Source: Chryseobacterium pennipullorum | GTDB lineage: Bacteria; Bacteroidota; Bacteroidia; Flavobacteriales; Weeksellaceae | Direction of reading: 5' to 3' | NCBI RefSeq assembly: GCF_003384725.1 | Contig: NZ_QNVV01000003.1 | Location: 186,001 to 250,000, forward strand | DNA: 64,000 nt | Part shown: positions 46,249-63,275 of the stretch, piece after piece | Layout: the number at the start of each line of letters is the position of its first letter | How positions within the stretch are numbered: position 1 is the first letter of the stretch | Position numbers and translations under genes: made by a program | The notes under the pieces: model-generated | Databases searched by the model: none | Seen by the model: only the letters and a program-made list of their open reading frames with translations | What the model was told of the DNA's origin: nothing

Positions 46249-47208
46249 ATGAGAAAAAAAATGATTTTGAGTACTGCAGTTTTATGCAGTGCAGTGATTC
46301 TTGTATGCGGACAAGTGGGTATCGGTACAGCAACTCCAAGAGGTGCTTTAGATATCAATAAGCCCACTACCAATACCTTCGGATTGGTGCTTCCTACCAA
46401 TTCAGATACCGATAATATTGTAAATCCTCAGGGAGGAAATGTTGCCCTTGCGACTGTGATGTATGATTCCAGTCAGGATTGTATCAGAGTTTACAGGTCA
46501 AGCGGGTGGTCACGATGCTTATCTGACAAAATCACCAGACCGGAAACTGTCCGGGTAGCGTATTGGTCTACCTATGCAATTGGCAGCTCAGGCTTGAGTG
46601 CTTTTAATTCTCAGTTAAACAATACCAATAATTATGGTGCTTCCGGTACATACAATAATGTTTCAGGATTTCAGTTTACCAACATTACCTCTACTTTGGC
46701 CAATACGACTGCTGATGACCTGCTGGCCAACTATGATGTGATTAGTACAGGGTTTTCTAATATGAGTGCTGCTGATGCTGCCAAGATCAAAAGTTATGTG
46801 GATCGTGGAGGCGTTGCGATCATATCACTTGATAATAATTTGGGAACTTCATTATTTCAGGCCTTCGGAGGTACAGGAAATGTAGCTACCGGGGCACTTG
46901 CCGGTAATAGTACGGCGAGCAATACCAATAATGGTGTTTTCGGTGATGCAAGAAATGTATCGTTATCAGGGGCTGCCAGTTCAGGAAGGGTTCAGATGTC
47001 TCAACTGCCTGCGGGTAGTAAGCTTCTTGCGAATGAAGCATCGGCTAATGCCGGAGTCTGGATTACCGGAGCGGGTGGAAGAGCTATTTTCTTTTGGGAT
47101 GAAGGAGTTTTTCGTGCTTCCAGCGTATCAGGTACTGTAATAGATACACCTCAGGAAAGATTTCTGCATAATATCATGGCTTATGCTCTAGATAGAGTTG
47201 GATCATAA
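46249..47208 (+). CDS. secreted protein with GIGT-type N-terminal module
   Basis: 319 residues with a signal peptide (ILSTAVLCSAVILVCGQ) followed at once by VGIGTATPRGALDINKPT, a module common at the start of Bacteroidetes secreted fibre or adhesin-like proteins. A two-Cys block follows (MYDSSQDCIRVYRSSGWSRC). Residues from about 105 form a separate domain, with LLANYDVISTGFSNMSAADA and IKSYVDRGGVAIISLD, that resembles glutamine-amidotransferase-like (ThuA/DUF4350-type) folds, a weak impression. It lacks a type IX C-terminal signal. It is a tandem duplicate of the next gene. Function unknown. Confidence 0.8.
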   Translation: MRKKMILSTAVLCSAVILVCGQVGIGTATPRGALDINKPTTNTFGLVLPTNSDTDNIVNPQGGNVALATVMYDSSQDCIRVYRSSGWSRCLSDKITRPETVRVAYWSTYAIGSSGLSAFNSQLNNTNNYGASGTYNNVSGFQFTNITSTLANTTADDLLANYDVISTGFSNMSAADAAKIKSYVDRGGVAIISLDNNLGTSLFQAFGGTGNVATGALAGNSTASNTNNGVFGDARNVSLSGAASSGRVQMSQLPAGSKLLANEASANAGVWITGAGGRAIFFWDEGVFRASSVSGTVIDTPQERFLHNIMAYALDRVGS

Positions 47209-47248
47209 TATCATCTACAATCTAATCATTAATTAAAAACAAGAGGTA

Positions 47249-48190
47249 ATGAAAAAGAAAATTATTTTTAGTATTGTTGTTTTATGCAGTGCGCTGTTCC
47301 CGGTATATGGACAAATGGGTATTGATACAACAACACCGAGGGGTGCTTTAGATATTAATAAACCCACCACCAATACATCAGGATTAGTAATTCCTACCAA
47401 TTCGGATACTGATCATTTTGTGAATCCTCAGGGTGGGGATGTCGCCGTGGGTACCATTATTTACGACTCTTCTCGGGACTGTATCAGATTTTACAAATCC
47501 AGTGGATGGTCACGGTGCCTATCTGATAAAAGAAGGAAACCGCCAGTTGTGCGTATGGGCCAGTGGGCTGTTCCTGCCTGGGTTCCTTTTAATGCCCAGC
47601 TTACCGATACAAATAATTATGGGGTTGCGGGGACGTATCGAAAAATTTCCGGAATAGAGCTTATTAATATTACCTCTACTTTGTCGGGATCGACGGTTGA
47701 CGAATTGCTTGCGAACTTCGATATCATATGTACAGGATGGAATGGAACGAACATGAATGCTTCCGATGCAGGTAAAATCAAAGAGTATGTAGATAGAGGC
47801 GGGGTAGCTCTGCTCATGTTTGACCTTGGGGTAGGATCTAATTTACTGCAAGCCTTTGGTGGCAATGGAAACGTGGGTACCGGTGGGGTTGTTGCAAGAA
47901 GTACGAATGATCCCGTCAATAATGGCATTTTTGGCGATGTTAGAAATATACCCATATCGGGATCTGATACTGCAGGTAGGGTACTGATGTCTCAATTGCC
48001 ACCAGGAAGCAGGCTTCTCGCTACTGAAGCCACTACAAATGCAGGCGGATGGATTGCCGGAAAAGACGGAAGAGCGGTATTCTTTTGGGATGAGGGCGTT
48101 TTCAGGGCTTCTGTAACAGGCCCAATAGATACGCCACAAGAGAGGTTTGTTCATAATGTAATGGCGTATGCCTTAGATCAGATCAGATAA
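47249..48190 (+). CDS. secreted protein with GIGT-type N-terminal module, paralogue of the preceding gene
   Basis: 313 residues, colinear with its neighbour: signal peptide ending VYGQ, MGIDTTTPRGALDINKPTTNT, the two-Cys block (IYDSSRDCIRFYKSSGWSRC), then DELLANFDIICTGWNGTNMNASDA, IKEYVDRGGVALLMFDLG, and the shared end GRAVFFWDEGVFRASVTG-PIDTPQERFVHNVMAYAL. The two genes are separated by 40 bases and plainly arose by tandem duplication, with divergence mainly between residues 100 and 125. They are probably co-transcribed. Function is unknown. Confidence 0.8.
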   Translation: MKKKIIFSIVVLCSALFPVYGQMGIDTTTPRGALDINKPTTNTSGLVIPTNSDTDHFVNPQGGDVAVGTIIYDSSRDCIRFYKSSGWSRCLSDKRRKPPVVRMGQWAVPAWVPFNAQLTDTNNYGVAGTYRKISGIELINITSTLSGSTVDELLANFDIICTGWNGTNMNASDAGKIKEYVDRGGVALLMFDLGVGSNLLQAFGGNGNVGTGGVVARSTNDPVNNGIFGDVRNIPISGSDTAGRVLMSQLPPGSRLLATEATTNAGGWIAGKDGRAVFFWDEGVFRASVTGPIDTPQERFVHNVMAYALDQIR

Positions 48191-50880: not shown

Positions 50881-51205
50881 TTCGGAATGACGCTGTTGTG
50901 ATTGTGTATAAGCAGTACAATAACTAAATGTCAATTGTTACTTTACGCAATGCGAGTAAGTTCGTCACATGAGTGGCTTTAATTCTTTAGGAATTATACA
51001 GCTTTTGTTGGTTTTATGAACTATTGCTATGGCACCTGAGGGTGTCATTTTTTTTGCGTTTAATCTGAATTCGGCATTGAATAATTCTTAATGATATTTA
51101 TCATATTTATAAAAATGGTAATTTTTGTAACTCCTTATTTTAGTGTATTTTATTGTAATATTATGTTAATTTTTGAAAATTTATCATGAAAATAAATAAG
51201 TCTAC
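50881..51205. other. non-coding region between the third secreted-protein gene and the SAM-riboswitch promoter
   Basis: Apart from the terminator at 51029-51055 this 325-base AT-rich stretch shows no gene or recognised RNA. Confidence 0.5.
51029..51055 (+). terminator. intrinsic terminator after the third secreted-protein gene
   Basis: Stem ATGGCACC/GGTGTCAT (one G-T pair) with a TGAG loop, followed by eight T. It lies about 150 bases after the gene and separates it from the riboswitch-controlled SusC/SusD unit. Confidence 0.82.
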
Positions 51206-51236
51206 TTGTTTTGTAGACTAAATGTTTGTAGCTTTG
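51206..51236 (+). promoter_or_regulatory. promoter of the SAM-riboswitch SusC/SusD unit
   Basis: TTG at 51206-51208 and TAGCTTTG at 51229-51236, with a 20-base spacer, match the Bacteroidetes consensus. Transcription should start a few bases before the riboswitch P1 stem at 51254. Confidence 0.65.
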
Positions 51237-51253
51237 CCAACATATTTCGATCG

Positions 51254-51348
51254 GCTTATAAAGAAAGATGGAGGGAACTGACCCTGCGAAATCTTAACAA
51301 CCTGCATTACGTAAGGTGTTACATTCAGCCTGTAAAGGAAAAATAAGC
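51254..51348 (+). promoter_or_regulatory. SAM-I (S-box) riboswitch
   Basis: The core matches the S-box pattern in order: P1 5' strand GCTTAT, AAAGAAAGATGGAGGGAA, TGACCCTGCGAAATCTTAA, CAACC, AAGGTGTTACATTC and the P1 3' strand ATAAGC. P1 pairs GCTTAT (51254-51259) with ATAAGC (51343-51348). The P2 base shows compensatory change (AAGAT/ATCTT instead of the common GG/CC), which supports a real structure. It binds S-adenosylmethionine and normally turns genes off when SAM is plentiful. It sits about 85 bases before the SusC gene. Confidence 0.9.
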
Positions 51349-51372
51349 ATTTGGTTTATCGTATTTATCGAT

Positions 51373-51400
51373 GCCCTTTGCTGACATTTCTGCAAAGGGC
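51373..51400 (+). promoter_or_regulatory. expression-platform hairpin after the SAM riboswitch
   Basis: A nine-base-pair perfect stem GCCCTTTGC/GCAAAGGGC with a ten-base loop lies between the aptamer and susC. It is followed by AAAATTTTAAT rather than a continuous T run, so it may be a weak terminator or a structure that affects translation. Confidence 0.6.
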
Positions 51401-51432
51401 AAAATTTTAATATATGATAAATAAAATTGATT

Positions 51433-54372
51433 ATGATTAATATAAATTTATTTCGTTCCAGGATCTGGATTCCACCAGTCGCTGCTGTTTTTCTGGGAAT
51501 TACCAGTGTAAGCGGACAAAGCTCCAGGCCTCAAAAAGATACGCTGAACGAAAAAGAAATTGATGAAGTAGTGGTCGTGGCCTATGGAAAAGCTAAAAGA
51601 ACCAGCTATACCGGTTCCGTGGCAACGATTTCCAGCGATAAAATCAACAACAGACCTGTCACCAATATTACAAAAGCCTTGGAAGGCCAGGTGCCGGGAA
51701 TCCAAACAACGACTTCTTCAGGACAGCCGGGAGCGGTCTCTACCATTAGAATCCGGGGAATAGGATCTGTAAGTGCTTCCAGCGACCCGCTGTTTGTGGT
51801 AGACGGAATTCCTTTTGACGGAAACATCAACTCCATAAGCCCGAATGATATTGAATCTATCAGTGTCTTGAAAGATGCTACAGCAAGTGCTTTATATGGT
51901 TCAAGAGGAGCAAATGGGATCATCATCATTACCACCAAATCCGGAAAGAAAGGAGAAGCACGGGTTAATTTAAATATCAGCCAGGGATTTTCCAGCAGAG
52001 CGGTTAAAGATTACGAACAAGTCAGTACGGACCAATATTTCCAATTATACTGGGAGGCGATGAGAAACGGATATCAGTCCGGACAGATCTCCGCTCAGCA
52101 AGCGGCACAGATGGCGACCGATAATCTTACTTCAGGTACGGGTCTTTCTATCAATCCTTATGGAGCAGCATATCCTAAACCCATAGGCACCGACGGAAAG
52201 TTACTGCCTGGTGCAAAAGCTTTATGGAATGATGACTGGAGAGATATTTTGCAGAGAGTGGCTTCCAGGAATCAGGTTGATCTGGACATCAGCGGAGGCA
52301 GTGAAAAAAGCAATTATTTCTTTTCATTAGGATATCTGGATGATAAGGGAATGGCAATTGAGTCAGGATTTAAAAGATACAATACCCGTTTAAAACTCAA
52401 TTCCGAAGTGAAAAGCTGGTTGAACGTCGGAGTTAACCTGAGCTATACCAACAGTATTCAGCAAGCTCCTACTTCTTCAGATTCCAAAGCAAGCAATATT
52501 ATCCAGGCTGCAAGAGTGATCCCTTCTTTTTACCCATATTACGAAAGAAATGATGATGGATCTTATATCCTGAATGCAGACGGAGACAGAATCTATGATT
52601 TTGGAAAATACAGGCCGACCAGTGCTCTTCAAAATCAAAATGCAGCAGCCACACTTCCATTGGATAAAAACGAAAATAAGGAAGATAACTTTTCAGGAAA
52701 AGGATTTCTGGATTTCACATTCTTACCGGAGTTGAAATTCAGATCGAGCTTCTCCGTTGACCTTGTGAATTATAACGGACATTACTATTCTAATCCGCTT
52801 ATCGGACAAGGAAGTGAAACCGGCGGTTCGGTGACGAAATCCAACAGCAGGACATTGTCATATACCACCAGTAATATTCTGACTTTTGATAAGAAATTCG
52901 GAAAACACCATTTCAATGTCTTAGGCGGACAGGAATTCTATAAATATGAATATCAGACCATCTCAGGAACAAGGACGCAGTTTTCGCTCCCTTACTATTA
53001 TGAGCCTGATGCAGCAGCCCTGTTAGGAAGTTTCAGTGGAAACAGTGATCAGGTAAGCTTATTGAGTTTCTTAGGTAAGGTAGAATATGATTTTAATAAT
53101 ACCTATTTCTTGTCTGCGTCAGGTCGGGCAGATGGTTCTTCGAGATTCTCGCCAGGCAACAGATGGGGGAAATTCTGGTCTGTGGGAGGTTCATGGAAAA
53201 TTTCAAATGAGGAGTTTATTAAAAACCTGAATGTCTTCAACCAGCTGACCCTCCGGGCAAGTTATGGTGGACAAGGAAACGATAAATTACTGCAGCCTAA
53301 CAGGTCACCATTGTATTATGCTTACCAGGAACTGTATAAGTTTTATAATAACCTGGGTGAGCCGGGAACCGTTCTTGAAAAAGCCGCTACAGAGAATGTA
53401 AAGTGGGAAACGAATCTTAATCTGAATGTAGGGCTGGAGTTTGCCATCCTAAATAACAGGATTAAAGGTAATATAGAATATTTCCAACGAAAAAGCCAGG
53501 ATCTTCTGTTCAATATGCCGGTAGCACCATCATTAGGAATCAGTGATTTTCCGGCTAATATCGGAACGATAAAAAATACAGGTTTTGAATTTTCACTTTT
53601 TACCACTCCGATCAGGAACGACGATTTTCAGTGGAATGTGGATATCAACCTAAGTACTTTGAACAATACCATTACAAAACTTCCTAAAGGTTCTATTGTC
53701 TCTGGTACCAAGTTGCTGCAGGTAGGAGGTTCTGTGTATGATTTTTATATTCCGGAATGGGTAGGAGTGGATCCGAATACCGGAAATCCGCTTTGGAAAA
53801 CTTTTTATAATGATGCCAGCGGAAATACCGTAGAAGGAACAACTTCTGAAGTGTCTAAGGCGACAAGAACATTGCAGGGTTCTGCATTGCCAAAGGTAAC
53901 GGGAGGAATCAGTACGAGTATTGCTTACAAGAACTTTGATTTTTCAGGATTACTGACATTCAAGATTGGCGGTAAGGTACTGGATACAGACTATACTTCG
54001 TTGCTGCATAACGGAAGTGCCGGCGGAAGAGCATGGAGTGTTGAAATGCTGAACCGATGGACTCCTGAGAACCGCAATACGGATGTACCGGGATTGAGTA
54101 CTACAACGAACAACTGGACGACAACCTCTTCAAGATTTTTATATTCGGGAACGTATGCAAGACTTAAAAATGTGAGCTTAGGATACACACTTCCATCCGA
54201 TTATTTTGAAAAAATAGGCCTTAAAAAGTTCAGAATCTATATTCAGGCTGAAAACCTTCTGACTTTTTATAAGCATAAAGGAATGGATCCTGAACAAGCT
54301 TTGGATGGGACCACGTATTACAGGTATCCTGCCATGAGAACCATTACTTTCGGACTGCAGGCAACTCTTTAA
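51433..54372 (+). CDS. SusC/RagA-family TonB-dependent receptor under SAM riboswitch control
   Basis: About 979 residues from the ATG at 51433 (an in-frame TTG at 51427 is also possible). A signal peptide ends in SVSGQ, a TonB-box-like IDEVVVVAYG follows, and then the plug (ALEGQVPGIQTTTSSGQPGAV, IRIRGIGSVSASSDPLFVVDG, ALYGSRGANGIIIITTK) and a barrel ending ITFGLQATL. As with the first SusC, the carboxypeptidase-regulatory-like N-terminal domain is missing. SAM control suggests uptake of methionine, a peptide or another sulfur compound needed for SAM synthesis; this substrate is inferred from the riboswitch alone. Confidence 0.92.
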   Translation: MININLFRSRIWIPPVAAVFLGITSVSGQSSRPQKDTLNEKEIDEVVVVAYGKAKRTSYTGSVATISSDKINNRPVTNITKALEGQVPGIQTTTSSGQPGAVSTIRIRGIGSVSASSDPLFVVDGIPFDGNINSISPNDIESISVLKDATASALYGSRGANGIIIITTKSGKKGEARVNLNISQGFSSRAVKDYEQVSTDQYFQLYWEAMRNGYQSGQISAQQAAQMATDNLTSGTGLSINPYGAAYPKPIGTDGKLLPGAKALWNDDWRDILQRVASRNQVDLDISGGSEKSNYFFSLGYLDDKGMAIESGFKRYNTRLKLNSEVKSWLNVGVNLSYTNSIQQAPTSSDSKASNIIQAARVIPSFYPYYERNDDGSYILNADGDRIYDFGKYRPTSALQNQNAAATLPLDKNENKEDNFSGKGFLDFTFLPELKFRSSFSVDLVNYNGHYYSNPLIGQGSETGGSVTKSNSRTLSYTTSNILTFDKKFGKHHFNVLGGQEFYKYEYQTISGTRTQFSLPYYYEPDAAALLGSFSGNSDQVSLLSFLGKVEYDFNNTYFLSASGRADGSSRFSPGNRWGKFWSVGGSWKISNEEFIKNLNVFNQLTLRASYGGQGNDKLLQPNRSPLYYAYQELYKFYNNLGEPGTVLEKAATENVKWETNLNLNVGLEFAILNNRIKGNIEYFQRKSQDLLFNMPVAPSLGISDFPANIGTIKNTGFEFSLFTTPIRNDDFQWNVDINLSTLNNTITKLPKGSIVSGTKLLQVGGSVYDFYIPEWVGVDPNTGNPLWKTFYNDASGNTVEGTTSEVSKATRTLQGSALPKVTGGISTSIAYKNFDFSGLLTFKIGGKVLDTDYTSLLHNGSAGGRAWSVEMLNRWTPENRNTDVPGLSTTTNNWTTTSSRFLYSGTYARLKNVSLGYTLPSDYFEKIGLKKFRIYIQAENLLTFYKHKGMDPEQALDGTTYYRYPAMRTITFGLQATL

Positions 54373-54380
54373 CTCTTACA

Positions 54381-55883
54381 ATGACAACAATGAAAAAAAT
54401 AAAATATTTATCTTTTGCTTTCATCGGATTCTGGTCAGTGACCAGCTGCGAAAGTGAACTGGATACGGCTCCAACTGATCAGGCCAACCAGGCTGAGGTT
54501 TTCAAAACAGCTGAAAGCGCAGAAACGGTGATCAACGGAGCATGGGCCAAATTTAACGATGACGGAACTACATACGCCAACATAGGTTTTTCCACAGTCC
54601 TCAGGGCAAGTGATGCCATGGGAAGTGATGTGGCAGTACTAACCAACAAATATGGTTTTGCCTCAACCTATGCATTTACGGAAATGGTGAATAATACTGC
54701 CAGCCGCCCGTTGTTTATCTGGTCTATGTTTTATTCCACGATCAATAATATGAACAATGTCATCACAAGGATCGATGGAACCGAGGGAAGCCAGGAGAAA
54801 AAGAATCAGGTGAAAGGACAGGCCAAGGCGCTGCGTGCATTCTGTTATCTGAATATAGCAAGCTTTTACCAGTTCAGCTATCTTAAAGATAAAACAGCTC
54901 TTACTGCTCCGCTTTATACGGAACCTTCAACCATTAATACACCAGGGAAAAAAAGAGCGAGCCTTGAAGAAATCTATACCCTGATAAAAAGTGACCTTAC
55001 CGATGCTGATCAGCTATTAAAAGATTATACGAGAAACAATAAGGACAAGATCAACCGGGCTGTAGTCAACGGGCTTTTGGCAAGAACGTACCTGAATACG
55101 GGAGAGTGGAGTAAGGCTGCCACCTCTGCAAAGTTGGCAAGAGAAGGCTATCCGCTAATGGCTCCTGAAAAATACAAAGACGGCTTCAATGACATCAACA
55201 ATGTGGAGTGGATCTGGGGACATGGGCAGACACAGGAACAATCTGATGCAAGCTATGCATTCCATTATCTGGATGTGTCTTCATCAGGAAGTTTTTACTA
55301 CAGCTTTATGGCGGATCCTTACTTTAAGAATTTGTTCGACAGCAATGATATCAGAGCTCAATTGTTCTCATGGGATGGCCTTAAAGGAAGAGAAGGATTG
55401 CTGAGATATGCTAAATTTAAGTTTAAATCCACACTGATTGCCGATCTTGTTTATATGAGAGCTGCTGAAATGTACCTGATTGAAGCTGAAGGTGAAGCAA
55501 GAAACGGAAATGTATCCCAGGCTGTAGCGGTGCTGAATCAGCTTAAATCCGCCAGAAATGCCAATGTGTATAGTGGTTCTCTGGCAGAGAATGAAGTAAT
55601 TGATGCCATTTTGATCGAAAGAAGAAAAGAATTGTTTGGAGAAGGATTTGCTCTTTCAGATATTATCAGAACACAGGGAACCGTAGTAAGAAAACCATTT
55701 GTAGATGGGGAAGGAAAACCTGTGAAAGTTCAGATCACCACCCCGGACGGAACGGTAAAAACAGTAGACGGCAGAGGACATTCTATTTTTGGTTTCCCTG
55801 ATAAGTCTTCTTTCACCCCGAACAGCAATTACTATCTGTTCAGCATTCCACAGAGAGAAGGGGAGAACAACCCGAATTTATAA
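54381..55883 (+). CDS. SusD/RagB-family outer membrane lipoprotein
   Basis: 500 residues as read, or 497 from the second ATG at 54390 (MKKIKYLSFAFIGFWSVTSC, lipidated Cys20 in that numbering). The SusD helical blocks are present: NNMNNVITRIDG, GQAKALRAFCYLNIASFYQ, YMRAAEMYLIEAEGEARNG and ERRKELFGEGFALSDIIRT. It caps the SusC transporter encoded eight bases upstream, so it shares the SAM riboswitch. No degradative enzyme gene follows; the unit ends with a terminator. Confidence 0.92.
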   Translation: MTTMKKIKYLSFAFIGFWSVTSCESELDTAPTDQANQAEVFKTAESAETVINGAWAKFNDDGTTYANIGFSTVLRASDAMGSDVAVLTNKYGFASTYAFTEMVNNTASRPLFIWSMFYSTINNMNNVITRIDGTEGSQEKKNQVKGQAKALRAFCYLNIASFYQFSYLKDKTALTAPLYTEPSTINTPGKKRASLEEIYTLIKSDLTDADQLLKDYTRNNKDKINRAVVNGLLARTYLNTGEWSKAATSAKLAREGYPLMAPEKYKDGFNDINNVEWIWGHGQTQEQSDASYAFHYLDVSSSGSFYYSFMADPYFKNLFDSNDIRAQLFSWDGLKGREGLLRYAKFKFKSTLIADLVYMRAAEMYLIEAEGEARNGNVSQAVAVLNQLKSARNANVYSGSLAENEVIDAILIERRKELFGEGFALSDIIRTQGTVVRKPFVDGEGKPVKVQITTPDGTVKTVDGRGHSIFGFPDKSSFTPNSNYYLFSIPQREGENNPNL

Positions 55884-55919: not shown

Positions 55920-55945
55920 AGCCACTGCTTTGCGGTGGCTTTTTT
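55920..55945 (+). terminator. intrinsic terminator after the SAM-controlled susD
   Basis: Stem AGCCACTGC/GCGGTGGCT with a TTT loop, followed by a run of T, 37 bases after the susD stop. Confidence 0.88.
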
Positions 55946-56411: not shown

Positions 56412-59400
56412 TTAATCTCCATAATAGAGATGTTCAGAAAATATAGGATTTTTGATTGTTCTGCCACCGGTATTCTGAAGCATTATTTCTGCTCCGAATT
56501 CATTGGTTCCCGGTATGAGGTACGCGTTTCCTTTGATGAAAAGCTGTTCCCAGATACCACTAGCCTGCATATTGCTCCATCCCTGGTTATTAACCTGGAT
56601 GATGTGTCCGAATTCATGTCCAAAAGTACTTGGGTCTGTGCTGCCAAATGTAGCAACATTATTTCCCCAGGTAACTTCTCTTTTATATCCACTGCTCCAT
56701 AAAGGCTGTATTACCTGATAAATTCCTCCTTTTCTCCATTTTACATGGTCATAAGACACATTTCTTTCTTTGGATATTTTCTTTACGAAATGCAAATCAT
56801 CTTCATCAGGCTGGAATGTTGGTCCAAATGCAGCAACAATAAAAAGACCTTGTCCTGCTCCGTTGTAAGCTCCGTTTTCAAAACCGTTTTTAATTCCCTG
56901 CCATACATTGGTCCCTCTGAACATTGCCGAGAATCCACCAGAAATTGCACCAGTAATTCCATATTTTGTAGAATTGTAAAGTACTTCTGCTACTGCATTT
57001 TTGGTCCATCCCCAAACTCCTTTTCCGCCTAGCGTTTTCCAGCCTGGTAGTTTGTTTCCTACAAATGATCCAATCATCGATGAGGTAATTGTTACTGCGT
57101 CAATTTTTCCATCCAGCATAAATTGGGTCGTAATATTAGAAAGAAGTTCCCAGGTTCCACTATTAAGAATGGTGCTGCTGGTCGTAAATAGGGCAGAGCC
57201 CAACCCATTTAACCCACCGGATATAGCGCCAGCAACCGCTCCTCCTAATACTGCTTTACCAAAACCACTCCAGTCTTTGGTAATTAAACCTTTGATGGTG
57301 TACGTTAAAATACCGACACCCGCTCCTATTATAGCCCCATAAATAGCTCCTATTGCAATTTTGATAAGAACCGGAACTAAGAAGAATACTTCGCCGCTTG
57401 GGTCATTATACATCAAAGGATTGTTCAGGACATACCCATATTTGTTGTAGTTCTGTGTATTATAAGTCTCCTGGATATGTTCATCTGCATTTAAGAATCT
57501 TCTCAATAGCGGATCGTATAATCTTCCATTCATATGGATGATTCCTATTTCCATAAAATGCTCGTGGGAAGTGTAGCCCCTTTCCAGCAATATTCCTCCA
57601 TTGTTTACTGTTTCCTGGATTTTATTCACATCGGTAATAATTGCTGCATTACCTATCTGAAGATGGGTCAAGTTACCCCATGCATCAAAGTGTCTTTGTT
57701 CCAGTTTGTTTCCAGCCTCATCACTGATCGCCAGAATACTTCCCAAGTAATCTTTATGTAGGAATTTATAAGAACCGGAAGCTTCAGTATAATTCTTGAC
57801 AAAAATAATATTGCTTTCGTAAGGTGATCCACCAATGTAAATAATATGTTTTTCTTTACCTGTAGTGTTATCTTTTACTACCTCGAAACTCCCGTCTTCA
57901 CTATAGAATTTAGTAAATTTACCCTCTCCGTCAGCGCTAAAGTTTCCTCCATAGGTAACCCGCTGTCTCATGTTGGTAAGGCCGTATTGGAAGGCAACAT
58001 CACCTTTTATTCCATCGATAAATACAGGATCATTATTTTCATTATAGACAACATTCTGAATTAAGTCATTGTTGTAATTTTGAGTTCCCGCAGCATTTAA
58101 AGTCATTCCCGTCGGCTGATAAACCTTGGAGGAATTGTCAAACTTAATGGTGCCTACCTGGTCATTCTCCAGAATTCGTCCTTTGTTATCATAAACATTT
58201 CGGATTGCATTCTGTACCTTAACACCTGTAGCTGGATTTGTCCAGTTGATTAGCCTGTTGTTATTGTCATAATCAAACGATTCCGAAATAGAGAAATCTC
58301 CTTCTGTAGTTCGGGTTTCCAATTCATTTTTGATTGCATTAAAATTGTATGAAAGTCGTAAGATATGTGGCTTATTTGCTGAACCGTGATTTACTTGACT
58401 AAGAGTTCCGTCAGGCTCATAGGTTTGGTTAATTTCAGCAGCTCCCAACTTAGCTTTAAGAATTTTCCCTTTATCACTTACATTTTTAAGTTCCCAAAGG
58501 ATTTTTCCTGAGTTTTTATCCTTAACCTGATACAAAACTCCGTTCCACGCATTGTATACATTTTCGATCTGTACTTTAGTCAGTACTCCTGTAGAGAATA
58601 GTTGCCTTTCATAAGAGATAACCCTTGCTCTATCATCATACGTAATTCCTTTTTGTATAAAATACTTGTCATTGCTGCTTTCAGATGACGATAGAGTTCT
58701 TCCTTGGGGATCGTAAACTGTATTAGAGCTGTAGGCTTTTCCGTTAGATGTCCCTGATTTTGAGATCAGTCTTCCTTTGTCATCGTAGATAAATTTGAAG
58801 ATCTTATTGGTAGCTTGCCCGCCATCTGAAGTGGAAGTTTCCTTTTGAGAGATAAGCTGGCCCAGGGTATTATATGTATATTCTTTTGTTCCTTTTGGAC
58901 TGATAATTTTTTTAGGCTGTCCAAATCCATTGTATTCATATTTGTACGTTCCATTAGACGGGTCATTGAATTCTGATTTTCGTCCCCATGGATCATACTT
59001 GGTTGTTACAATGTTTTCGGCATACTGAGCCTTGGTTTGTTCTCCTGAAGCATTGTAAGAAAAAGTAATAGTTCCCCCTTTATCAGAGCTCGTTACCACA
59101 TTTTCCAGTACATCAGTCGTTTTGGAAGTTGTTCTTCCATAACCATTCATTTCTTTCTCCGTAACTGTGTTTCCGGAAACGGAAGTTTCAATTTGTTTTC
59201 CTGTAAATGCTGTAATGGTCATTTTAGGTGGGAAGACTGAATCATTATACGCTATCGTATTCCATTGCCATGGATTCCCTCCTTCGAAATATGGCTCGCT
59301 TTCACTGGTCTTTCTTCCTAAAACATCGTATTGAGTGTCTTTGGAAATAAACTTTCCTTGTTCAAAGGCTTTGGCAGATGTTTTATAGTCTTGCCCCAGC

Positions 59401-62400
59401 TTATTGGTATATTTTTTTGAAATATTTCCTTGAGGTTCATACTGAACTACGGTAGAGTTAAATTGGTCATCTCTTACATATTCATAGGTTGTAGTACCTC
59501 CCAAATTGGTTTTTGACTTCATCAGTTTTCCCCAACCATCATACTCATTATCTAAGGTATTTCCCAGATAATCCGTCTGCTTGGTAATCTGTCCCAAGTC
59601 ATTATAAATAATGCTGGTAACCAACCCGAGGTTGTCTGTCTTTTTAATGACATACTTTCCTTTATCATCATACTGCGTAGCAACAACCTGCGTTTGTGAA
59701 TCTATGCTGTTGCTTGTTGTTTTTGAAGTAATATTTCCAAAACCGTCATAATTAAAATCTTCCAATAACCAACCTGTATTGTTTCTGTTCCAGGTTTTTA
59801 TTTTTTTTATAAGGTTATTGTCATATGTGAATTCCTGTTTTGTAGATTGGGTATCATTATATGCTTGTTTTACCTCTGATTTTTCTTGAGGACGGCCGAT
59901 ATAATATTCAGATCCTGTCCCGGACGGGTTGTGGATATAGGTAAATGTTGAAGTGGTAACAGCATAACCATTATTGATACTGGAAATGTTTTGCGATGGA
60001 AGATAATAATTTCCATAGGTAACAGTATTCTCTGTAATCTTATTGGTTAAAAAGTCTTTCGTTTTAATCTTTTGTGGGAGAATCGCTGTTACTGCCTTGG
60101 ATTTATCAGCATCAGAGATTGAAGCTGTAATCTGGCCGTTCACCAATTTATCGATTTGATAAATAGTGGATTTAAAAGATAATAGTTGGCTGTTGTTTTC
60201 AGATATATCAGTCGGGAAAATTTTAGTCTCGTCTGTTGTCCGGATAGACCATTCTTTAACTGGCAGGCTTTCCTTCAACGGGTCTATTTCTATACCATTC
60301 CACACTTTTGTGTTTTCTAATCCATCTGCATACCATGAAGAACGGGCTGTTTGGCGGAATCCTACCATTCCACGGCCTTGAAGGTGCGCTAATAGTCCTC
60401 TATAACGGAAATCCTGCTTTTTGCCTGTTTGCTGGATTTGTGATACAGCATATGACTGCTGGGCACTTGCAAGCTCCATATAAGGGTATTTTTCCTTTTT
60501 TACAGCTTGGTAGAAGTTTGGAGAAACAATAGGATCAAGCTCTTTGTAGCTGATGTCTGTTTTTACTCCACCCTGAGTGATTGAATTGATACGAGCTTCT
60601 TTAGACACATCATAAAAATCAATCCTCTTTACCCTGTCTCCTGATACTCCTCTGATCGGGCTCGGGCTAACAAGAATGATCTGATGGATAGACTGATTGA
60701 TCCTAAAGTTACCTAAAAGCTCCTGCATATCGTACTTTGTTCTTTCATTAAGGTAGGTATGCGGATTATCTCTAAACCCACTACTATCTCCTAAAGGACC
60801 TTCACTGAATGCATATCGGATGTCATTATTGAATTTCTTCTCGCCACCTGAAATTTTGATATCGACAGTATTATGATAATAGATATTAAAAATAGTCTGA
60901 GAACCGCCAAGTTTCACTCTTTCTTTGCGGTAATTGAACGTAACAAAATCACTTTTTCCATCCCTGTCCAGATCATACGCCTGGTGACTGGTTCTTTCCA
61001 CCGTTGCCGTACCATCGTTATTGGTATTGACAAGAGCATTTTTTCTGAATAAAGCAAAGTTTGATTTAAATTCCTCTGAAAACGATTTTCCTGTTGATTG
61101 ATATAAATACCAGTCTGTCGTCGTATCCGATGCAGGAACTAATAAATCACTTTTTCCATCTCCGTTAAAATCACCTATAACCGCTCTTTGGTTTACCCCT
61201 TTTATTCTTTCATCATTTAAATAGAATCCACGTTCTATCACTGAATAAAGATTATTGGATCCTTTCTGAAACTGAACAATAAATGGACGGTTTCCACTAT
61301 CAAATCTTAAGAAATCCGTTTTTCCATCGCCGTCAAAGTCTCCTATTTTGTATGTTTCCAATATATCGGTATCATACGGATAAAAAGACATTTGAGAGAA
61401 AGACTGTGATGTGGTTGCTGCATTATCGATATTAATGACAACGTATCTTTTTCTGTCCTGGAAAGTTTCGTCAAATTCAGGAATGCTTATCGGAGCATGC
61501 GGATCCACAGGTCTTGGAACTTTAGTATGTACAGCGTCATTGAAACCCATTATTATTTCCGAAATTCCATCTCCGTCAAGATCTAATTCCATAAGCTTCA
61601 ATGGAGTCGTTTTGAAACTGCTACCCCCTTGCATAGGATCTATTGGAGGAGTCGTAAGATCATACACAGACTTGGGAAGAATCTTGGTGTATTGATGTTC
61701 CAGCTGATTAGCCTGGTTGATAGAATATACGAAAAGCTGAATATCTTTGGTATCATTGGCTACCTTATAAAAAGCAAATCCCTGCTGGTTCTCCATAATA
61801 CCCGCCGGGTTCTTAAAAGAAATAGGAAGTGCTTTTTTAAACTCCTCTTTTGTAATATCCAATGATCCTACAAAAGTAATTTCCCCCTGTCCTTGCGGTC
61901 GATCCAAAGCTTTCTTAGCCAAATAAAATCCAGCCGGTTTATTGGTAGGGTTCACACATACCGGGTTGAAGCCAGTACCACCAACACTTTCGCAAACCCT
62001 GAAAGGCTGATCCTTGTATTCTAAGGCATCTATTTTCCCATCGCCATCAAAATCACCTAATAATCCTGATTCCAGAGAGTGACTTGATGATTGTATCCAG
62101 TCTGTCCCTCGTACCGAGTTTTCGTATTCAAAACTGACAGGATTAGCTGCTGCCCCAGCAGAATTATATTCAGTGATGTTGCTTAGAAACTGATAGTTTG
62201 TTCCGTTATTGTCCTTCTTATAATTAATACGGTATGTTTTGAAAGGCTTTAAATGGGAAGTCACTATAATTTCAGACAAAATCTTACTTTGTGTATGTTC
62301 CCAGCCCTGTACGAAAGCCTGTTCCTTTAAATCCCTGTCAAGATAAATGAAGTCAATAAAATTGAAATGAGGTTTATTCAATGTTTCATTTCCTCCCCAT

Positions 62401-63275
62401 GCGATGGTGGATATTTTCATGACACGGTTTAAACTTCTGAAGCCACCACCATCCGATTCGGATGTATAGTTATAGGAAATGTAATTTCCCTGAGCATCCT
62501 TCCACTTCACAATATTGTATTCTAAAGGCGTGGTTACGGTAGGTTTACCTCTGATACCCGCGCCGTATACTCCATACCAGGCTTGTGATCCGTCTTCAAA
62601 GGTAACTTCAAAATGAGCAGGTCCTACATCTTGCCCATTGATAGGGTAAGTACCTATAGATTTGATTTTGATATTGGAGTATTTTTCTGTCACATATTCT
62701 GCTCCATCTTTTCCGTATTCACCGGATTTCAAGATTAATCTTTGCCCGTTAAAACTATAGGAGTCAGAATAATCTATTTGCACAGGCTTAATCTCGCCAT
62801 GTGTTTCGATGGTTTTACCAATTCGTGAAATAGAAGTAATTCCCGATAGATTCCAGCTATATCCTGCGATACCATTTCCGGTCCCGCTGGTGTATACAAG
62901 GTTTGCCTGGGGTGCTACATTTTTTACTCCGGGTGGTAAGGCAATAGGTAAAGTGAATTGTAGCTGTCCGGATCCTGTAACTTCTATATTTCCTTTGGTA
63001 TCATGAAAACTTTTACCCGTCGGTGCAGTAGTTCCACTAGGATTATTTGCTCCCGCATTAGAACTTGTTGGTCCTCCTCCCGGATTTTCGGTACCCGGAC
63101 CAATTTTCGCCAAAAACGGACTGGAAGTATCTGATGTAGCATAAAATCCCTGGGCCATGACGACCGCCTGCGGATCCTGAACTGTCCGCGAGGTGGATTC
63201 TGCCTGGTAGAGTATGGTCTGTGAAAAGGCCCATACCGAACACAAGGATAACATCAATGATGAAGATAATTTCAT
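56412..63275 (-). CDS. RHS/YD-repeat protein with SpvB and FG-GAP domains and C-terminal HExxH peptidase motif
   Basis: 2287 residues. A signal peptide (LMLSLCSVWAFSQ) is followed by an SpvB-like N-terminal domain (GSGQLQFTLPIALPPGVKNVAPQ, GIAGYSWNLSGI). About five FG-GAP/VCBS-type motifs come next (DFDGDGKIDAL, DLDGDGISEI, DFDGDGKTDF, DFNGDGKSDL, DLDRDGKSDF), then a long YD-repeat shell. The RHS core end is RLYDPLLRRFLNADEHIQET, NNPLMYNDPSGE near residue 1960. A hydrophobic Gly-rich stretch follows (AIGAIYGAIIGAGVGIL). The tip has GHEFGHIIQ (HEFGH at 2220-2224), a zinc-peptidase motif, with a possible third ligand in NEFGAE. This is the layout of a polymorphic toxin. Target and activity are not shown. 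Confidence 0.88.
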   Translation of the reverse strand: MKLSSSLMLSLCSVWAFSQTILYQAESTSRTVQDPQAVVMAQGFYATSDTSSPFLAKIGPGTENPGGGPTSSNAGANNPSGTTAPTGKSFHDTKGNIEVTGSGQLQFTLPIALPPGVKNVAPQANLVYTSGTGNGIAGYSWNLSGITSISRIGKTIETHGEIKPVQIDYSDSYSFNGQRLILKSGEYGKDGAEYVTEKYSNIKIKSIGTYPINGQDVGPAHFEVTFEDGSQAWYGVYGAGIRGKPTVTTPLEYNIVKWKDAQGNYISYNYTSESDGGGFRSLNRVMKISTIAWGGNETLNKPHFNFIDFIYLDRDLKEQAFVQGWEHTQSKILSEIIVTSHLKPFKTYRINYKKDNNGTNYQFLSNITEYNSAGAAANPVSFEYENSVRGTDWIQSSSHSLESGLLGDFDGDGKIDALEYKDQPFRVCESVGGTGFNPVCVNPTNKPAGFYLAKKALDRPQGQGEITFVGSLDITKEEFKKALPISFKNPAGIMENQQGFAFYKVANDTKDIQLFVYSINQANQLEHQYTKILPKSVYDLTTPPIDPMQGGSSFKTTPLKLMELDLDGDGISEIIMGFNDAVHTKVPRPVDPHAPISIPEFDETFQDRKRYVVINIDNAATTSQSFSQMSFYPYDTDILETYKIGDFDGDGKTDFLRFDSGNRPFIVQFQKGSNNLYSVIERGFYLNDERIKGVNQRAVIGDFNGDGKSDLLVPASDTTTDWYLYQSTGKSFSEEFKSNFALFRKNALVNTNNDGTATVERTSHQAYDLDRDGKSDFVTFNYRKERVKLGGSQTIFNIYYHNTVDIKISGGEKKFNNDIRYAFSEGPLGDSSGFRDNPHTYLNERTKYDMQELLGNFRINQSIHQIILVSPSPIRGVSGDRVKRIDFYDVSKEARINSITQGGVKTDISYKELDPIVSPNFYQAVKKEKYPYMELASAQQSYAVSQIQQTGKKQDFRYRGLLAHLQGRGMVGFRQTARSSWYADGLENTKVWNGIEIDPLKESLPVKEWSIRTTDETKIFPTDISENNSQLLSFKSTIYQIDKLVNGQITASISDADKSKAVTAILPQKIKTKDFLTNKITENTVTYGNYYLPSQNISSINNGYAVTTSTFTYIHNPSGTGSEYYIGRPQEKSEVKQAYNDTQSTKQEFTYDNNLIKKIKTWNRNNTGWLLEDFNYDGFGNITSKTTSNSIDSQTQVVATQYDDKGKYVIKKTDNLGLVTSIIYNDLGQITKQTDYLGNTLDNEYDGWGKLMKSKTNLGGTTTYEYVRDDQFNSTVVQYEPQGNISKKYTNKLGQDYKTSAKAFEQGKFISKDTQYDVLGRKTSESEPYFEGGNPWQWNTIAYNDSVFPPKMTITAFTGKQIETSVSGNTVTEKEMNGYGRTTSKTTDVLENVVTSSDKGGTITFSYNASGEQTKAQYAENIVTTKYDPWGRKSEFNDPSNGTYKYEYNGFGQPKKIISPKGTKEYTYNTLGQLISQKETSTSDGGQATNKIFKFIYDDKGRLISKSGTSNGKAYSSNTVYDPQGRTLSSSESSNDKYFIQKGITYDDRARVISYERQLFSTGVLTKVQIENVYNAWNGVLYQVKDKNSGKILWELKNVSDKGKILKAKLGAAEINQTYEPDGTLSQVNHGSANKPHILRLSYNFNAIKNELETRTTEGDFSISESFDYDNNNRLINWTNPATGVKVQNAIRNVYDNKGRILENDQVGTIKFDNSSKVYQPTGMTLNAAGTQNYNNDLIQNVVYNENNDPVFIDGIKGDVAFQYGLTNMRQRVTYGGNFSADGEGKFTKFYSEDGSFEVVKDNTTGKEKHIIYIGGSPYESNIIFVKNYTEASGSYKFLHKDYLGSILAISDEAGNKLEQRHFDAWGNLTHLQIGNAAIITDVNKIQETVNNGGILLERGYTSHEHFMEIGIIHMNGRLYDPLLRRFLNADEHIQETYNTQNYNKYGYVLNNPLMYNDPSGEVFFLVPVLIKIAIGAIYGAIIGAGVGILTYTIKGLITKDWSGFGKAVLGGAVAGAISGGLNGLGSALFTTSSTILNSGTWELLSNITTQFMLDGKIDAVTITSSMIGSFVGNKLPGWKTLGGKGVWGWTKNAVAEVLYNSTKYGITGAISGGFSAMFRGTNVWQGIKNGFENGAYNGAGQGLFIVAAFGPTFQPDEDDLHFVKKISKERNVSYDHVKWRKGGIYQVIQPLWSSGYKREVTWGNNVATFGSTDPSTFGHEFGHIIQVNNQGWSNMQASGIWEQLFIKGNAYLIPGTNEFGAEIMLQNTGGRTIKNPIFSEHLYYGD

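Follow-up and report, generated by a model that had tools for sequence, protein, structure and literature searches.

A SAM-I riboswitch ahead of a SusC/SusD outer-membrane pair in Chryseobacterium, with support for a methionine and sulfur theme

Pairs of SusC and SusD proteins are very numerous in Bacteroidota, and most are assigned to glycans by default. SAM-I riboswitches, a family known to bind SAM, usually control methionine synthesis or an inner-membrane permease. A locus of Chryseobacterium pennipullorum that places the one directly ahead of the other raises the question of what an outer-membrane importer under such control is there to take up. The window (the whole stretch of 64,000 nucleotides that was analysed) holds the following features, the regulatory unit starting at 51199, with the palindrome, and not at 51206.

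51199 to 51219, no strand: palindrome AGTCTAC-TTGTTTT-GTAGACT, predicted transcription-factor operator over the -33 region (sequence, conservation)
51206 to 51236, plus strand: presumed Bacteroidota-type promoter (TTG at 51206-51208, TAGCTTTG at 51229-51236; conservation)
51253 to 51349, plus strand: SAM-I (S-box) riboswitch aptamer (RF00162, 62.9 bits, E 3e-12)
51337 to 51391, plus strand: antiterminator (folds and pair counts in 45 leaders)
51373 to 51408, plus strand: intrinsic terminator (51373-51381 pairs with 51392-51400, then AAAATTTT)
51433 to 54372, plus strand: susC, SusC/RagA TonB-linked outer-membrane protein of 979 aa (TIGR04056, TIGR04057, Plug domain)
54381 to 55883, likely start 54390, plus strand: susD, surface lipoprotein (PF14322, PF07980, lipobox ...SVTSC)
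55920 to 55940, plus strand: terminator closing the two-gene operon (9-bp stem, then a T run)

The operon and its leader

The products are what an earlier note on this DNA had taken them to be. SusC scores 773.3 bits against TIGR04056 (cut-off 368) and 63.4 bits, over cut-off, against the signature model TIGR04057, while SusD has both SusD Pfam domains and a lipobox cysteine (C20) that is invariant across 17 aligned proteins, and its gene adjoins susC. The start of susC is most likely ATG 51433, rather than the TTG at which the ORF listing begins it (domain and structure-database searches with SusC used the frame from 51436), which leaves 83 nt between the aptamer and the gene. That of susD is probably 54390, since a stop within the alignment of several orthologs would fit three extra codons; measured from the start in the ORF listing, the two genes are 8 nt apart. 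The closest solved relatives of SusD, matched nearly full length, are 3snx (392 bits, E 4e-116) and 3lew (387 bits, E 1.5e-114); a structure prediction from the 17-row alignment reached a mean pLDDT of 60, too poor for comparison. Because the hairpin at 55920-55940 is strong and terminator-like, and the genes beyond it lie on the opposite strand, the riboswitch serves two genes. The adjoining gene on the minus strand (56412-63275) encodes a protein of 2287 aa that contains both RHS and FG-GAP repeats and weakly matches the SpvB type, and genes resembling it occur near the operon in 40 of 85 loci. Elsewhere in the window, 46249-48190 encodes a tandem paralogous pair (319 and 313 aa) that has an N-terminal GALDINKPTTNT stretch in common.

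The aptamer is the sole Rfam match in the whole window, and covers model positions 1-108 (full length) with a score well over the curated cut-off of 44.4 bits. This is the covariance-model check on which the riboswitch claim of the earlier note had been staked. Two finer claims hold as well: the closing P1 helix pairs GCTTAT at 51254-51259 with ATAAGC at 51343-51348, and P2, in the model alignment, has A-U-rich pairs against the G-C-rich pairs of the family consensus, with pairing maintained. Covariation of the aptamer helices within the genus is almost nil and does not rise above shuffles, the genus being very uniform; proof of the aptamer rests on the family model, since the aptamer itself hardly varies. 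That the RNA belongs to the SAM-I family is secure, and it is a predicted SAM binder.

Downstream of P1 lie GCCCTTTGC/GCAAAGGGC plus a T run, and the fold of 51335-51430 is better than 200 of 200 shuffles (z -4.7). Pairs were counted in an alignment of 45 leaders picked for diversity, in which the terminator stem is paired in 91.4% of 405 cells, with double changes at 5 of its 9 pairs. The antiterminator consists of helices 51337-51341/51387-51391 and 51346-51349/51379-51382 around an inner hairpin (51353-51361/51369-51375); it is paired in 95.0% of 719 cells, none of 500 shuffles attains its covariation score, and the helix joining the P1 3' strand to the terminator 5' arm is paired in 45 of 45 leaders. 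When the antiterminator is slid by one column, double changes are about as frequent (5 pairs and 16 cells, vs 4 and 15 in the true register) but only 40.1% of cells pair. When folding is halted before the terminator 3' arm, every one of the 82 leaders that could be parsed (of 84; L106 and L156 could not) forms three or more pairs between the P1 3' region and the terminator 5' arm. The antiterminator excludes P1, which needs 51346-51348 out of the 51346-51349 that the antiterminator occupies, and it excludes the terminator because it uses 51373-51375 and 51379-51381, which the terminator requires. One subclade has weak terminators, with energies up to 0 (e.g. L137, L147), in a survey where 12 of 84 leaders fell outside the pattern; the Elizabethkingia leaders printed carry a stem, two As and seven Ts. 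The arrangement is that of a SAM-off transcription switch, and the conserved terminator and antiterminator agree with the direction predicted earlier, that the pair would be off at high SAM.

Conservation of the order and its neighbourhood

Of 118 same-genus genomes, 83 have a SusD ortholog at E 1e-60 or better, and 80 of the 82 loci besides the window's own were compared, broken or split copies in G063 and G074 being excluded. The order riboswitch-susC-susD is kept in 80 of 80, with aptamers recognized by a motif pattern allowing up to 2 substitutions; susC is directly upstream of susD in each (the match in L148 ends at residue 817), and the aptamer motif starts 158-165 nt ahead of susC. The covariance model RF00162 matched 26 of 26 related loci, comprising 22 from Chryseobacterium, three from Elizabethkingia and one from Olivibacter, which belongs to another order, and the same arrangement with SusCD recurs in the last four. 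A search for this order in other Flavobacteriia, as the earlier note had proposed, thus returns it from all 80 same-genus loci and the three Elizabethkingia loci. Genomes with SusD have 2 or 3 SAM-I matches (83 of 83), and the 35 without it have one (27) or two (8). From these comparisons of sequence we regard the riboswitch, the switch layout and the SusCD target as secure.

At the 1e-60 threshold SusD is matched in 27 of 395 phylum genomes, and 24 have only distant copies (3 candidates were scored per genome, so that distant copies may be missed). The idea that these distant homologs are SAM-regulated relatives was rejected, as a SAM-I was seen nearby in 0 of the 24 genomes, coordinates being compared by eye.

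Genes for aroQ and pckA stand beside the operon in most Chryseobacterium loci, with counterparts in Elizabethkingia L236, and the genes downstream vary between loci. Near the operon of one relative is a Flavo-1 sRNA (RF01705; L165:15988-16081). The earlier remark that no glycan enzymes are present stands for Chryseobacterium, in that none is found among the neighbours recurring in at least 12 of the 85 loci (names by eye); regular glycan-enzyme neighbours, the mark of a polysaccharide utilisation locus, are absent at that level of recurrence. The remark does not extend to Elizabethkingia L236, where a sugar permease, a ROK protein and a GH38-like enzyme lie nearby on the other strand, or to Olivibacter L242, where a fucosidase gene lies some 3.5 kb ahead of the aptamer.

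Other SAM-I riboswitches give a view of the company this one keeps. The third in the same genome leads a methionine operon with a metX-like gene (152 bits, below cut-off), homoserine dehydrogenase, homoserine sulfhydrylase and parts of metH. Further targets were classified from 84 loci that are the best-scoring matches and not an even sample, 4 of which were not placed by motif pattern. A SAM-I stands directly ahead of a plain TonB receptor at L002 / L292 (G000:C5:42883-45275), a receptor family led by SAM-I in 14 of the 80 classified loci. In another family (G387, L275:1390-6453) a SAM-I precedes, by a leader of about 350 nt, a different SusC with a PF12771-type SusD. A thioredoxin-like (AhpC-TSA, DUF4369) protein gene is led by SAM-I in 5 loci among these best-scoring matches, as at L278:1043-3949 (G332), and in three genomes of other families (L248, L255, L262) the gene that follows encodes a small protein, CoA-binding-like by eye.

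Loss of sulfate assimilation was tried as a reason for having the operon, and rejected. The PAPS reductase family PF01507 occurs in 108 of 118 genomes (twice in the window's own), so that sulfate assimilation is likely present in them, and genomes that retain PF01507 have the operon more often (81 of 108) than genomes lacking it (2 of 10; Fisher p 9e-4). The importer is therefore likely an additional, scavenging route and not a substitute for a lost pathway.

A shared palindrome and sulfur-poor receptors

The region 51206-51236 is one that we take, by its motif, to be a promoter of the Bacteroidota form; a sigma-70 scan did not list it, as expected for this type. Its presence just upstream had been claimed earlier, and the conserved spacing bears this out: TAnnTTTG lies exactly 10 nt past the core of an overlapping palindrome in 82 of all 85 leaders. 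That palindrome, at 51199-51219, has 0 mismatches to AGTCTAC-N7-GTAGACT. Its core is found with at most one mismatch in 81 of 81 Chryseobacterium leaders (0 mismatches in 63), with 3 or more in the Elizabethkingia susCD leaders, and not at all at the Olivibacter susCD promoter. These data suggest an operator, a candidate second control on susCD, and the predicted factor that binds it would probably be a repressor, since the palindrome overlaps core promoter elements.

Seven sites with at most one mismatch occur in the window's own genome. Three are at receptors: the susCD operon itself, the second SAM-I TonB receptor (where the palindrome overlaps the 5' edge of that receptor's aptamer) and a paralogous receptor. 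A fourth precedes EamA-metN-metI-metQ, in which MetI and MetQ pass their models and MetN scores 442 bits, below the NCBIfam cut-off of 500, yet has ABC and NIL domains; others mark a NIL-domain gene standing alone (26.0 bits against a cut-off of 24), a 1-Cys peroxiredoxin gene that diverges from an MscS-like neighbour, and the side of a yggS gene. A second susCD pair (L345:6789-11828, G000:C12) has two palindromes of 2 mismatches each, 146 bp apart, and its ortholog in G002 likewise has two, with 2 and 1 mismatches. In six other genomes of the genus there are 19 sites with up to one mismatch, 18 of them assigned to genes (peroxiredoxin 6, susC 3, NIL 3, paralogous receptor 2, metN/EamA 2, second susC 1, yggS side 1), and the nineteenth abuts a SAM-I aptamer. 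Peroxiredoxin is the most constant target (6 of 6 other genomes having any site); the metN/EamA site is present in only 2 of 6 relatives.

Raw counts lie near the level of a reversed-pattern control. The window's own genome has 85 palindromes vs 246 controls for the core at up to 2 mismatches, and 14 vs 25 at up to 2 mismatches; the six relatives have 19 vs 14 at up to one mismatch, and Elizabethkingia has 0 vs 2 at that stringency. The case for a function therefore rests on the recurrence of sites in orthologous places, not on numbers. An Rrf2 gene near a site at C7:13734 was considered as the regulator and rejected, as that site has 2 mismatches and its class is no richer than the control. 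The peroxiredoxin in the set would fit a sulfur theme, given that the 1-Cys peroxiredoxin gene lsfA is up more than 45-fold in sulfur-starved P. aeruginosa (PMC12581299).

A receptor produced under sulfur shortage would be expected to contain little Met and Cys. The four palindrome receptors (one being the second SusC, which counts through its pair of weak sites) take ranks 1, 2, 3 and 6 for lowest Met+Cys among the 56 TonB-type receptors of the genome, with 0.14, 0.31, 0.33 and 0.73%; the remaining 52 have a mean of 1.68% (sd 0.57; p 1e-5 by a one-sided rank test). Among the 12 receptors with a SusC-like signature, as defined by a pattern, the two palindrome SusCs are the lowest; the second SusC has 3 Met and no Cys past its first 22 residues. 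Across 80 SusC sequences from the genus, among them the window's, the average is 0.81% and cysteine is absent; SusD is at 1.89%. No palindrome lies upstream of L366 (0.38%) or L365 (0.88%), or in the 354 nt upstream of L401 (0.69%). Low Met+Cys is partly a family habit, since the two plain palindrome receptors share a subfamily with the palindrome-free L366 and L365.

The link to methionine or sulfur began, in the earlier note, as a guess from the signal; it now has independent support in the palindrome shared with metNIQ and in the low Met+Cys of the receptors. The theme, at the level of predicted regulation and composition, is supported by several independent lines.

Competing readings and significance

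We consider it probable that the SAM-I leader stops transcription of susC and susD at high SAM, and that the pair, made at methionine shortage, likely imports a source of methionine or organic sulfur. In the mechanism we propose, the SAM-bound aptamer would hold the P1 3' strand and the terminator would form; without SAM, the P1 3' strand would pair with the terminator 5' arm and RNA polymerase would read on. A predicted transcription factor at the palindrome, probably a repressor, would provide a second, sulfur-related gate. Driven by TonB, SusC with its SusD lid would then carry the ligand across to the periplasm, from where methionine would reach the cytoplasm through the co-regulated MetNIQ. 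The favoured ligand, by resemblance to RagA, would be a methionine-bearing peptide, which is the weakest step; the exact ligand of this SusCD, as a methionine source, is a reasoned guess. More tentative, at a little less than even confidence, is the wider picture of a two-gate sulfur-hunger circuit, in which the palindrome factor and the SAM riboswitch would together release Met/Cys-poor importers and MetNIQ, and SusCD would be dedicated to uptake of a methionine source rather than of glycans. We hold equally tentatively that the importers of this circuit are two susCD pairs and two TonB receptors of the outer membrane.

A leader working chiefly through translation or RNA stability seems improbable to us: some leaders do have weak terminators, and in the fold of the window's leader a longer helix extends toward the start codon, but the double changes in the terminator stem, the invariably paired helix from P1 to the terminator arm and the stem with its T run in Elizabethkingia speak for termination of transcription. 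The pair might instead be a glycan or general peptide importer, with SAM serving as a growth or nitrogen signal. SusC resembles RagA, which is linked to peptides, and other SusC homologs about equally (4e-107, 8e-106), the PDB relatives of SusD are carbohydrate-binding in name, and the copies in Elizabethkingia L236 and Olivibacter L242 have sugar genes in their vicinity; set against these are the lack of a glycan enzyme recurring in at least 12 of 85 loci and the palindrome common to metNIQ, the NIL gene and the second SAM-I receptor, and we judge this reading quite unlikely.

A substrate of another kind, an oxidised organosulfur compound (sulfonate or sulfate ester) and not methionine, is doubtful but deserves some weight, as sulfur starvation regulons often import such compounds; no gene for them is seen, judging names by eye, among neighbours recurring in at least 12 of the 85 loci, and it is MetNIQ that the palindrome marks as inner-membrane partner. 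It is unlikely, finally, that the palindrome has nothing to do with sulfur and is, say, an operator for oxidative stress. The constancy of the peroxiredoxin site and the control-level totals would suit that reading, whereas the sites at metNIQ, the lone NIL domain and both SAM-I receptors, and the low Met+Cys of the palindrome receptors, argue for sulfur, and the 1-Cys peroxiredoxin itself is induced by sulfur starvation in P. aeruginosa (PMC12581299).

The SAM-controlled importer that we prefer has several likenesses among known systems. With SAM-I riboswitches at large it shares the full-length aptamer match and the terminator/antiterminator layout, and differs in its target, an outer-membrane SusC/SusD pair. 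In Bacteroides, btuB is reportedly under cobalamin riboswitch control, where likewise a riboswitch gates a TonB-dependent importer for its ligand's own pathway; here the ligand family is that of SAM, the importer is a SusC/SusD pair, and the ligand is not likely the cargo. RagAB of Porphyromonas gingivalis has the same SusD/RagB lid design, and SusC matches RagA strongly (E 4e-107), but the likeness of SusD to RagB is weak (E 3e-11). Among solved structures 3snx and 3lew are nearest to SusD, over almost its full length; in the 24 genomes that carry only distant SusD copies, no SAM-I adjoins those copies. The sulfur-starvation response of P. aeruginosa, in which scavenging and the 1-Cys peroxiredoxin LsfA rise together, concerns another organism and other regulators, and no riboswitch is described in the part of the source consulted (PMC12581299). 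Among the full-text matches listed, and in passages of PMC3766115, PMC11089507, PMC7160235 and PMC12581299 (supplements lay outside the scope), no description of a SAM-I ahead of SusCD appears; the riboswitch class and the importer class are both known, and their pairing was not found among the literature matches listed.

A riboswitch with a known ligand family is a rare and direct clue to a non-glycan SusCD substrate, and it makes the assignment of a SusCD pair to a methionine source testable in one strain. Since SAM-I precedes at least two kinds of SusCD, the window's and that of L275 with its PF12771 SusD, it may serve as a search key for orphan SusCD pairs. The palindrome found at several promoters points to a sulfur regulator, in a genus that matters both environmentally and clinically.
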